Origin: Azonexaceae bacterium
GTDB taxonomy: Bacteria; Pseudomonadota; Gammaproteobacteria; Burkholderiales; Rhodocyclaceae
DNA: 6,753 bases
Direction: 5' to 3'
Assembly: GCA_009469685.1 (NCBI GenBank)
Contig: SSTA01000220.1
Span: 1-6,753 of the forward strand
Shown: piece by piece, positions 3,117-5,466 of the stretch
Layout: every line of letters starts with the position of its first letter
Numbering within the stretch: the stretch's first letter is position 1
Translations under genes and position numbers: made by a program
Notes under the pieces: model-generated
Told to the model about the DNA's origin: nothing
The model's input: only the letters and a program-made list of their open reading frames with translations
Database searches by the model: none

Positions 3117-3326
3117 TCAGGGGACGGGATCGTACCCGCCCGGATGCCAGGGATGGCAGCGGCAGACCCGCCGCGCACTCAGCCAGGCGCCTCTTGCCGC
3201 CCCGTATTTTCGCACCGCCGTCACTGCGTACTCCGAACAACTGGGATGGAAGCGGCAACGCCTTCCCAGCCAGGGGCTCACAGCGTACTGATAGCCCCGC
3301 AGAAGCGCAATGAGCAGGGCTTTCAT
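3117..3326 (-). CDS. yidD: Membrane protein insertion efficiency factor YidD
   Basis: YidD is a small membrane-associated protein that helps YidC-dependent insertion, and its gene is usually found between rnpA and yidC, as here. The 69-residue product carries the family pattern: an amphipathic N-terminus ([21 protein letters not shown]), [11 protein letters not shown] (24-34), [10 protein letters not shown] (55-64) and a terminal DPVP. Cysteines are at 24, 30, 55 and 57. It is shorter than the 85-residue E. coli protein because it ends right after DPVP, which is common in the family. The ATG at 3326 overlaps the rnpA TGA as ATGA, and GGAAGG lies three bases upstream inside rnpA, which suggests translational coupling. 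Its stop is 25 nt before yidC. Confidence 0.96.
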
Positions 3327-3715
3327 CCGCCTTCCGAAATCGCCTTGCGGGGCAATCGGGCCATGAGGTCTAGGGCTTCCCGCGCCACAAGCCGGCCATC
3401 GATGCGGCCCGGCTTGACCATCAGGCGAAAGACCACGTCCAGGGAGGGAAGACCGCTGCGCCGAAGGCGGAACTGTTCGCGCAGGATCCGTTTGATGCGG
3501 TTGCGGCCCACCGCCGATTTGACCTGTTTGCGTCCGATCACCAGCCCCAGGCGGGCATCCGTGCCGTCGGCACCGCGGGGCCGGTAATGGACCATGAAAA
3601 GCGTGCCGCGGATCGCCCTCCGGAAACCAAAAACGGATGAATACTCATCCGTTTTGGTTAAGCGATAGCGTCGCGGAAAGGCGCCGACGGACGGTGCCGC
3701 GGCAGCCGCGCTCAA
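3323..3715 (-). CDS. rnpA: Ribonuclease P protein component, TTG start overlapping rpmH
   Basis: RnpA is the protein subunit of RNase P. It binds the catalytic RNA and pre-tRNA leaders during 5' maturation of tRNAs. The 130-residue product contains [17 protein letters not shown] (13-29), then [22 protein letters not shown] (55-76) with the signature RNR at 71-73, and LDVVFRLM (92-99). I choose the TTG at 3715. It overlaps the rpmH stop as TTGA, and it is the first ATG/GTG/TTG in this frame downstream of the mapped promoter. The next in-frame candidate, the ATG of LFMVHYR at residue 41, would delete conserved sequence. The frame stays open upstream through all of rpmH, but that stretch reads as the rpmH sequence out of frame. 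No good Shine-Dalgarno sequence precedes the TTG, so initiation probably depends on ribosomes finishing rpmH. A terminator-like hairpin lies within codons 19-31. Confidence 0.93.
3625..3659 (-). terminator. Intragenic terminator-like hairpin early in rnpA
   Basis: Read on the minus strand, AACCAAAACGGATGA (15 nt, 3645-3659) is followed by the loop GTAT and then TCATCCGTTTTTGGTT (3625-3640). An uninterrupted 11-bp stem is extended by four more pairs past a single bulged base. The layout is that of an intrinsic terminator with an A-tract, a CGGATGA/TCATCCG core and a U-tract. It is nearly symmetric and could act on either strand. It lies in codons 19-31 of rnpA, about 55 nt after the start. Inference: it partly terminates transcription so that rpmH is expressed well above rnpA. 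Confidence 0.7.
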
Positions 3716-3846
3716 ACGCCCAGACGCTGGCGGCCCTTGGCGCGACGGGCGGCGATGACCTTGCGGCCGCCCTTGGTGCGCATGCGGACCAGGAAGCCGT
3801 GGGTGCGCTTGCGGCGCACGACGGAGGGCTGATACGTGCGTTTCAT
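3712..3846 (-). CDS. rpmH: 50S ribosomal protein L34
   Basis: L34 is a tiny, very basic protein of the large ribosomal subunit. The 44-residue product begins [20 protein letters not shown] and continues with the near-invariant core [19 protein letters not shown], ending RQRLGV. Length and sequence are those of the family. The ATG at 3846 is preceded by AAGGA (3854-3858) with seven bases between, a good ribosome-binding site. It is the first gene of the operon, about 28 nt from the predicted transcription start, and its TGA overlaps the likely rnpA TTG. Position next to dnaA, read divergently, is the classic origin arrangement in proteobacteria. Confidence 0.99.
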
Positions 3847-3956: not shown

Positions 3957-4027
3957 TAGAATGTTCGCGTACAGAGGCGGCTTTGGGCCGCCAATTTTGT
4001 TGTCCAAATTCCAAGCGTTTCCATAAG
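3957..4027 (+). promoter_or_regulatory. Candidate dnaA promoter region (weak matches)
   Basis: Two weak candidates exist. TAGAAT at 3957-3962 matches five of six -10 bases but has no good -35; the DnaA box overlaps the -35 position, which would suit repression by DnaA. TTGTCC (4000-4005) with CATAAG (4022-4027) at 16-nt spacing matches four of six in each hexamer and lies downstream of the GC hairpin. The sequence alone does not decide between them. Confidence 0.3.
3976..4002 (+). terminator. GC hairpin with T-rich tail upstream of dnaA
   Basis: GGCGGC (3976-3981), a five-base loop TTTGG, and GCCGCC (3987-3992) form a perfect 6-bp GC stem, followed on the plus strand by AATTTTGTTG. This resembles an intrinsic terminator for rightward transcripts. 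It could insulate dnaA from antisense transcription coming through the rpmH operon, or act as a leader attenuator if dnaA starts at the TAGAAT upstream. Confidence 0.45.
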
Positions 4028-4083: not shown

Positions 4084-5466
4084 ATGTCCGGTTTTTGGGA
4101 ATCCTGCCTGCTACGTTTTGAACAGGAATTGCCGGCTCAGCAGTTCAACACCTGGATCAGGCCGCTGCGTCTGGAAGGGGAAGAAGCGCCGCAGGAGGGG
4201 CTAAGGCTGCTCGCCCCCAACACGTTCATCCTCAAGTGGGTGCGGGATCGCTACCTGACCCGCATCGAGGACTATTGCCGCAGCTTTTTCGCCATGCCGG
4301 TTTCGATCGCCTTGTCGGTCTCCGGTGGCCGCGCTGCGACTCCAAGACAAGACTCCGAATCGGCAACGGAAGAAGTTGCGACCGCACCGGTGCCGGCGGC
4401 CACTTCCGCCGCCGCCAAGAAAGTCATGGGCCGCCCGTCCGCCTATGAAAAGACCCGGCTCATCGCGGGCTTCACCTTCGACAATCTGGTCGTCGGCAAG
4501 GCCAACGATCTCGCCCGGGCGGCCGCCCAGCAGGTCGCCGGCAATCCCGGCGGAGCTTACAACCCCCTCTTCATCTATGGCGGCGCCGGCCTGGGCAAGA
4601 CCCACCTGATCCACGCCATCGGCAATGCCATCCTGGCGGACAACGGCGAGCGGGTGATCCGCTACGTCCATGCCGAGGATTACTACTCCGACGTCGTCCG
4701 CGCCTATCAGCAGAAATCCTTCGACAGCTTCAAGCGTCAGTACCGCACCCTCGACGTGCTGCTCCTCGACGACGTCCAGTTCTTCAACGGCAAGAACCGC
4801 TCCCAGGAGGAATTCTTCTTCCTGTTCAATGCCCTGATCGAAGCCAAGAAGCAGATCATCATCACCTGCGATACCTACCCCAAGGACATCAACGGACTCG
4901 ACGATCGCCTGGTGACCCGCTTCGACTGGGGCCTCACCGTCCAGATCGAGCCGCCGGAACTGGAAATGCGGGTGGCCATCCTGAAGAAGAAGGCGGAAGC
5001 CGAAGGGATCCAGCTCAACGACGAAGTCGCCTTCTTCATCGCCAAGCATCTGCGCTCCAACGTGCGCGAACTGGAAGGCGCGCTCAAGAAGGTCCTCGCT
5101 TATTCGTCCTTCCACTGCCGCGAAATCGCCCTCGACCTGGCCAAGGAGGCCTTGAAGGACGTCATCGGCTCGGTCCGCAATGTCGGCATCGAAAGCATCC
5201 AGAAGACCGTCTCCGACTATTACAAGATCAAGGTCGCCGACCTCTTTTCCAAGAAGCGGACGCGCGCCATCGCCCGGCCGCGCCAGGTGGCCATGTGGTT
5301 GTGCCGCGAAGTGACCAGCCACAGTTTTCCGGAAATCGGCGATGCCTTCGGCGGCCGCGATCACACCACGGTGATCCACGCCGTGAAGACCATCGACGGC
5401 CTGAAAACCAAGGACAACGAACTCAACCACGACCTGCACGTCCTGGTGCAGGTACTCAAGGGGTAA
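4084..5466 (+). CDS. dnaA: Chromosomal replication initiator protein DnaA
   Basis: DnaA binds DnaA boxes as an ATP-dependent oligomer, melts the origin and helps load the DnaB helicase. The 460-residue product has all four domains. Domain I (about 1-80) starts MSGFWESCLLRFEQELPAQQ and includes the conserved FNTWIRPL. Domain II (about 82-120) is a short Ala/Thr-rich linker. Domain III is AAA+, with Walker A GGAGLGKT (166-173), Walker B LLLDD (226-230), the arginine-finger region TRFDWGL (278-284, R279) and sensor II RSNVRELEG (324-332, R328). Domain IV carries the DNA-binding helix-turn-helix with ARPRQVAMWL (397-406) and signature GGRDHTTVIHA (423-433). All key residues are present. The start fits the family N-terminus and a strong Shine-Dalgarno sequence. 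dnaN follows in the same direction after 208 bp. DnaA boxes on both sides suggest autoregulation and a nearby origin. Confidence 0.99.
   Translation: MSGFWESCLLRFEQELPAQQFNTWIRPLRLEGEEAPQEGLRLLAPNTFILKWVRDRYLTRIEDYCRSFFAMPVSIALSVSGGRAATPRQDSESATEEVATAPVPAATSAAAKKVMGRPSAYEKTRLIAGFTFDNLVVGKANDLARAAAQQVAGNPGGAYNPLFIYGGAGLGKTHLIHAIGNAILADNGERVIRYVHAEDYYSDVVRAYQQKSFDSFKRQYRTLDVLLLDDVQFFNGKNRSQEEFFFLFNALIEAKKQIIITCDTYPKDINGLDDRLVTRFDWGLTVQIEPPELEMRVAILKKKAEAEGIQLNDEVAFFIAKHLRSNVRELEGALKKVLAYSSFHCREIALDLAKEALKDVIGSVRNVGIESIQKTVSDYYKIKVADLFSKKRTRAIARPRQVAMWLCREVTSHSFPEIGDAFGGRDHTTVIHAVKTIDGLKTKDNELNHDLHVLVQVLKG

Follow-up and report, generated by a model that had tools for sequence, protein, structure and literature searches.

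Intrinsic (Rho-independent) terminators are the class of signals closest to the element that we describe here inside rnpA, which like them has a 7-pair stem with four G-C pairs, a 4-base loop, and, in the sense direction, a T-tract that follows the stem immediately. Unlike usual intrinsic terminators, however, the element lies wholly within the early codons of an essential gene, and nearly every base of it is conserved in the betaproteobacterial loci that carry it. For E. coli, transcript 3' ends that are premature or internal to open reading frames, some of them with intrinsic-terminator scores, are described by Adams et al. 2021 (PMC7815308). Those are mapped ends, whereas the rnpA element is recognised by comparative conservation, and neither rnpA nor rpmH appears in the main text of that paper. 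In the archaeon Methanococcus maripaludis, internal operon terminators set unequal gene expression and lower the downstream genes (PMC10450193); these terminators have been mapped experimentally, whereas the bacterial rnpA element is placed inside the codons of the downstream gene. A further related case is Thermus, in which the overlap of rnpA and rpmH links their expression through a shared translation initiation site (PMC9841429). The two genes are the same, but the link in Thermus is made at translation initiation and the rnpA element is a transcription-type signal. No account of the element was found in the titles, abstract starts and passages of the open-licence literature, and the open-licence literature also yielded no report of the reduced transcription between rpmH and rnpA in E. 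coli that the first-pass annotation had mentioned. Codons 8-15 of the E. coli K-12 rnpA hold an 8-base inverted repeat without mismatches, GGGAGTTA/TAACTCCC (L231:3016-3038). This repeat has no T-tract, no terminator-like site was found there on that strand, and the fold of 121 bases is not significant (z -0.49), so that the same signal in E. coli was rejected.

In the window, which is the whole stretch of 6,753 nucleotides that was analysed, the minus strand encodes mnmE, yidC, yidD, rnpA, and rpmH, and the plus strand encodes dnaA and dnaN. The assignments of yidC, yidD, rnpA, and rpmH are based on NCBIfam models and those of mnmE, dnaA, and dnaN on translation and gene order. The features needed here are the following:

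3712..3846, minus strand: rpmH, ribosomal protein L34 (TIGR01030, 82.6 bits, cut-off 37.65), upstream neighbour of rnpA and presumed to belong to the same operon
3323..3715, minus strand: rnpA, RNase P protein (TIGR00188, 46 bits, cut-off 38.35; translation)
3625..3659, minus strand: whole hairpin including A-tract, T-tract, and the outer AACC/GGTT extension (sequence and folds)
3652..3655, minus strand: A-tract, sense AAAA, able to pair with the T-tract (102 of 116 distinct motif loci have AAA as their Lys-type codon)
3645..3651, minus strand: left arm of the core stem, sense CGGATGA (seven of seven core pairs in all 86 distinct sequences of alignment A3)
3641..3644, minus strand: loop, sense GTAT, the variable part (Glu/Asp and Tyr/Phe/Ile codons in the matches in relatives)
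3634..3640, minus strand: right arm of the core stem, sense TCATCCG (alignment A3)
3629..3633, minus strand: T-tract, sense TTTTT (codons GTT TTT; GTT in 116 and TTT in 114 of 116 distinct motif loci)

The 116 distinct loci are what is left of 159 motif loci after removal of repeats, L205 and L219-L222 being set aside as other than rnpA. Read from the sequence, with the start being inferred, the presumed TTG start of rnpA overlaps the TGA stop of rpmH (bases 3712-3715), which suggests that the two genes may be translationally coupled. An L34 gene lies upstream of rnpA in 225 of the 226 loci examined, and the hairpin follows the rpmH stop by about 60 bases (60 in the window; median 69 and range 37-215 in 115 loci). 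Two further observations concern the neighbourhood. An Rfam match to AsdA, the antisense RNA of the dnaA mRNA, falls within dnaA (window 4576-4651) with 41.5 bits, below the gathering score of 52, and a plus-strand terminator-like hairpin, GGCGGCTTTGGGCCGCC followed by AATTTTGTTG, lies between rpmH and dnaA (window 3976-3992), sites of this kind being about as frequent in the window as expected by chance. In total, Rfam gave two weak matches in the window and none at 3600-3720 (up to E=1).

The hairpin reported in the first-pass annotation is real, with 15 pairs, one bulge, a 4-base loop, an A-tract before and a T-tract after the core. Positions 3625-3659 of the window read aaccaaaaacggatgaatactcatccgttttggtt; in the sense direction, from 3659 down to 3625, these are AACC AAAA CGGATGA GTAT TCATCCG TTTTT GGTT, corresponding to codons 19-31 of rnpA. 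Wide conservation is found for the inner 11 pairs and the T-tract only, and the outer AACC/GGTT pairs are present in some close relatives only. The region 3600-3720 folds with -57.8 kcal/mol (z -3.86) and the region 3615-3670 with -21.3 kcal/mol (z -5.22), none of 200 dinucleotide shuffles being as low in either case; both folds were made on the plus strand, and the palindrome folds on either strand. The core hairpin in the window, with its 7 pairs and loop of 4, accounts for -8.6 kcal/mol. A GC-containing stem-loop and a U-tract immediately 3' of the stem, two features of an intrinsic terminator, are both present. A simple terminator scan of the window did not have the hairpin among the 6 sites that it listed, a number near chance (5.2 expected). 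Taken together with the comparisons described below, we estimate a probability of roughly three in four that the element is a partial intrinsic transcription terminator inside the rnpA reading frame, which would end many rpmH transcripts and thereby limit the RNase P protein.

The same peptide without the stem, named in the first-pass annotation as a refuting case, would speak against selection on the structure itself, but no such case was found in either of two sets of relatives. A peptide search with one genome per species, in which TDEYSSVF was one of six patterns, gave at least 61 loci, 60 of which could be aligned at the motif (L061 could not). Among the matches listed, 58 of these 60 encode TDEYSSVF and all 58 share ACGGATGARTAYTCATCCGTTTTT, differing at two loop bases only: all read ACG GAT GAR TAY TCA TCC GTT TTT, where the third bases of GAR and TAY are the loop positions, and the preceding Lys-type codon is AAA in 54, AGA in three, and AGG in one. 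Because the patterns were peptides, the search did not select for codon choice. The two aligned loci without the motif are labelled Luteimonas and Psychrobacter, and the labels among the 58 include Dechloromonas, Thauera, Zoogloea, Aromatoleum, Accumulibacter, Caballeronia, Vogesella, Chitiniphilus, and Neisseriaceae as well as, for a few metagenome-assembled genomes (MAGs) with other labels, one Paludibacter, one Gammaproteobacteria, one Comamonadaceae, and several Proteobacteria. The contig labelled Paludibacter (Bacteroidota; L038), whose rnpA has the hairpin, is probably a mis-binned betaproteobacterial contig. A Neisseria gonorrhoeae record also carries the element. The second set was taken from the 207 genomes without exact arms in the search of 300 genomes of one order described below, of which 160 were searched with PF00825, giving 150 matches; 148 were fetched (G163 and G200 were left out) and 140 rnpA genes could be aligned at the motif (L173, L298, L299, L301, L305, L311, L312, and L314 could not). 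Twenty of the 140 carry SSVF, each with all seven pairs. Full pairing is missing in 119 of the remaining 120, and therefore many genomes of the order do without the element. The exception, L292 (AADISAVL), forms all seven pairs at the homologous site and has no T-tract, possibly a decayed copy or chance; it was counted as a non-carrier, as were L142 and L287, which have six of seven pairs.

Copy number and wider distribution were recorded in the relatives' genomes. One exact copy per genome (two mismatches allowed) is found in 21 of 22 genomes, the exception being the Luteimonas genome, and exact arms occur in 93 of 300 genomes of the order to which the Dechloromonas-labelled MAG G001 belongs, as a single copy each. 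With these single copies, a dispersed repeat or DNA uptake sequence was rejected. Among the matches listed, the loop differs within that order, with Glu or Asp and Tyr or Phe. The codon-agnostic pattern [TA]D[ED]xSSVF with TCN serines is matched in 157 of 399 genomes; for this search, as for that of the 300 genomes, only part of the matches were placed in rnpA. All but four of the pattern matches listed combine either GAT with TCA or GAC with TCG. The four are GAT with TCG in the rnpA of G059 (L113), one match outside rnpA in G041, and those in G241 and G331, which are outside rnpA or were not placed there. In G172 and G209 the pattern occurs a second time, in both cases outside rnpA. In the wider class, 5 of 185 genomes matched, and fully paired arms are present only in the centre genome. 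The arms of the four other candidate matches pair at 5 or 6 of 7 positions, of which five are forced by the pattern.

The T-tract is near-invariant. The 116 distinct loci have GTT in 116 and TTT in 114 cases, giving TTTTT in 114 and TTTTC in two; part of these loci were fetched by a pattern that fixes the arms, and the third base of GTT and the codon TTT were left free in it. This bears on the best-surviving alternative, that the hairpin acts post-transcriptionally, by blocking a 3' exonuclease or being cut by an endonuclease, and leaves a stable rpmH and an unstable rnpA mRNA with no stop of the polymerase. Processing of operons by RNases is well known, and a stable hairpin on the sense strand would likewise be selected for pairing. 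However, such a function would not need a T-tract, yet in addition to the constancy of the GTT and TTT codons T5 is intact in 21 of 21 sequences with an altered A-tract, and we regard this explanation as unlikely.

Pairing itself was followed over the 11 inner pairs in the 86 distinct sequences of alignment A3. In these, 99.7% of 946 cells are paired compared to 98.6% in shuffles, and 10 cells are changed on both sides compared to 1.1 in shuffles, where cells count sequences rather than events. Six of the eleven pairs never vary, and counted by pairs, double changes are no more numerous than in the shuffles (1 versus 0.7; this number is reached in 340 of 500 shuffles). Since the peptide sets five of the seven core pairs, only two core pairs are free at synonymous sites. 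One of these, columns 9-24, is G-C throughout. Compensatory changes were found at the other, columns 12-21, and there only: it is U-A in 75 sequences, C-G in nine, A-U in one, and U-G in one. The GAC/TCG form appears in two groups that are separate in the tree, the KADEFSSVF group, within which L113 (GAT/TCG) is nested, and L115/L118 (KTDEISSVF). At least three changes of the GAC/TCG label are forced by well supported branches of the tree, which rests on few columns. L241, L248, and L256 are similar to L115/L118 and are outside the tree. In L250, a change of Asp to Glu is matched by a change of the opposite Ser codon from TCA to TCT, so that an amino-acid change on one side and a synonymous change on the other keep the pair. 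Among the stem changes on one side only, 26 cells are G.U or U.G wobble pairs in the sense RNA and three are unpaired. Sixteen of the one-sided changes are Thr-to-Ala at one column, and the events are therefore fewer than the cells. The same wobble changes would be A.C mismatches in the antisense RNA. That it is the sense RNA which is under selection is thus a well supported reading of the alignment.

The same data bear on the possibility that a dimeric protein binds the element as a palindromic DNA site in the vicinity of oriC. It is a near-perfect palindrome, has one exact copy in 21 of 22 genomes, and belongs to an operon adjoining dnaA; TGAGTACTCA also seems to resemble the SlmA site. But the changes obey the pairing rules of the sense RNA (26 wobble versus three unpaired cells), and the T-G intermediate of L113 and the altered A-tracts break the symmetry of the DNA while T5 stays. 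Because the changes follow RNA pairing rules, a protein-bound DNA palindrome was rejected as the main reading and seems very unlikely.

The direction of the signal was assessed on both strands. T5 is intact in 84 of the 86 distinct sequences and AAAA in 65. A d'Aubenton-Carafa type score is positive at all 116 sense sites (0.17 to 23.8, median 5.6). The hairpin and its T-tract look like a weak intrinsic terminator in the direction of rnpA. Of 158 motif loci, which include repeats and arm-pattern loci, 156 have a terminator-like site in the stretch from the rpmH stop to the early part of rnpA, compared to 2 of 67 other loci (L060 and L153). With only two such cases, a substitute terminator-like site was rejected as a general feature of the lineages without the motif. 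One of the two, the Psychrobacter-labelled L060, lacks the rnpA hairpin but shows a strong terminator-like one at 357-379, AAGCACCTAATTATTAGGTGCTT and then TTTTTGAT, downstream of rpmH and upstream of the position of the rnpA motif, which perhaps does the same job at another place. The first-pass annotation had also proposed that the almost symmetric hairpin could stop antisense transcripts, and an element acting mainly in this way, or in both directions, would terminate transcripts running from yidC/rnpA towards oriC. The A-tract, which reads as a T-tract on the opposite strand, is conserved as well (AAA in 102 of 116), and a loose scan of all fetched loci, asking for 7 perfect pairs and T at 4 of 5 positions, in which repeated loci and overlapping hits were counted, gave 224 antisense hits of the palindrome compared to 322 in the sense place. 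However, the antisense score is below the sense score in 115 of 116 loci, and AAAA is altered in 21 of 86 distinct sequences while T5 is altered in 2 of 86. The antisense proposal is less well supported: some antisense role may exist, given the frequent loose-scan hits, but it is very improbable that this is the main function.

The codons of the hairpin had been described as far more AT-rich than those of the remaining gene, and this holds: the joint probability of the seven hairpin codons is about 10^-6.5. Among their synonyms in four other genes of the window, these codons account for few cases (TCA 1 of 78, GTT 9 of 144, AAA 10 of 86, TTT 13 of 69). When 20,000 random synonymous versions were drawn with the codon usage of the window, 5.1% had a 7-pair stem (G.U allowed) and 1.2% had T5, and both were combined in 15 versions. 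Five of the seven core pairs are set by the peptide [TA]D[ED]xSSV with TCN serines and, together with the 5.1% of synonymous versions, this means that the peptide predisposes to part of the stem. The remaining stem and the T-tract are beyond what the peptide dictates. The total folding energy of the 48-mer is unremarkable among synonymous versions (363 of 4,000 are as low). Across the 116 distinct loci, the GC3 of the remaining rnpA ranges from 0.22 to 0.90 and the hairpin codons hardly vary. In the group with GC3>0.8, the hairpin has GTT in 33 of 33 cases versus 10 of 270 Val codons in the remaining rnpA, and TCA in 33 of 33 versus 9 of 107 Ser codons. In the group with GC3<0.45, it has TCC in 10 of 10 versus 5 of 55 Ser codons. 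Elsewhere in rnpA, conserved residues have mixed codons. A constraint on codons or protein only, such as ribosome pausing or the RnpA fold, is hardly credible: although the peptide belongs to the N-terminal region of RnpA and five of the seven core pairs arise from it alone, the same codons are used at low and high GC3, the D, S, and S residues vary in 66 RnpA without the motif, and there are paired changes between distant codons.

In these 66 RnpA sequences without the motif, D is found in 7, the first S in 9, the second S in 5, V in 26, and SS in none. At the aligned position, PSQFTFVF is found both in the RnpA of the solved structure 2ljp and in that encoded by E. coli K-12 rnpA. Within the motif set, the invariance of the residues is given by definition because they define the set. 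Because the same positions vary in relatives without the hairpin, the RNA may hold the peptide, and the informative point for this is that no gene with SSVF was found without the hairpin. The earlier suggestion that the structure is selected while conserved residues are kept is thus borne out with regard to the structure (58 of 58 and 20 of 20 loci), but may be incomplete with regard to the residues, which vary where the hairpin is missing (66 loci).

What the comparisons show is nucleotide-level selection, compensatory base pairs in the sense RNA, a near-invariant T-tract, and a location downstream of rpmH. From these we infer termination, its efficiency, and its control by translation. If the element is a partial terminator, a polymerase leaving rpmH would make the CGGAUGA/UCAUCCG hairpin followed by five U and would often stop, yielding a short rpmH mRNA with a stable 3' end, and the remaining polymerases would read on through rnpA. 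As the hairpin is part of the rnpA codons, its left arm would be masked by a ribosome that has restarted at the overlapping rnpA start and follows closely behind the polymerase. Such masking would favour read-through, and expression of rnpA should then depend on its own translation. A single promoter would in this way provide L34 in large and RNase P protein in small amounts. Since rnpA is essential, termination must be partial, which is in line with the modest scores. Against a terminator, the T-tract is only five long and its score modest (median 5.6), and the A-tract is kept beyond the need of a sense-only terminator. Competing upstream sequences were also considered. 6-mers complementary to an arm are found within 200 bases upstream in 19 of 116 loci (TCATCCG-type) and 18 of 116 loci (CGGATGA-type). 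The former are often in Thauera-like rpmH at one place and the latter are scattered; no generally conserved upstream antiterminator was found among them, and this reading was not retained. In many of the Thauera-like loci (L019-L058), a TCATCCG that could pair with the left arm occurs within rpmH, some 100 bases before the hairpin, perhaps by chance in a conserved coding stretch or as a clade-specific competitor.

Judged by its anatomy, the element would work as an attenuator or intrinsic terminator, with a terminator-like signal embedded in codons that an essential gene conserves. A more far-reaching idea, possible but on balance doubtful, is that the terminator RNA dictates at least three RnpA residues (Asp/Glu, Ser, Ser) and, with read-through depending on translation, forms a self-adjusting RNase P attenuator that couples tRNA processing to ribosomal protein synthesis. 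Such an attenuator may respond to RNase P itself. Annotation of terminators usually looks between genes, and terminators inside codons are therefore easily missed. In many betaproteobacteria, the element offers a testable handle on how one operon could provide a ribosomal protein in abundance while its RNase P protein stays scarce. The element is, moreover, a clear case in which a terminator-like RNA and a protein share the same bases, and in which the RNA seems to limit the amino acids that are allowed.
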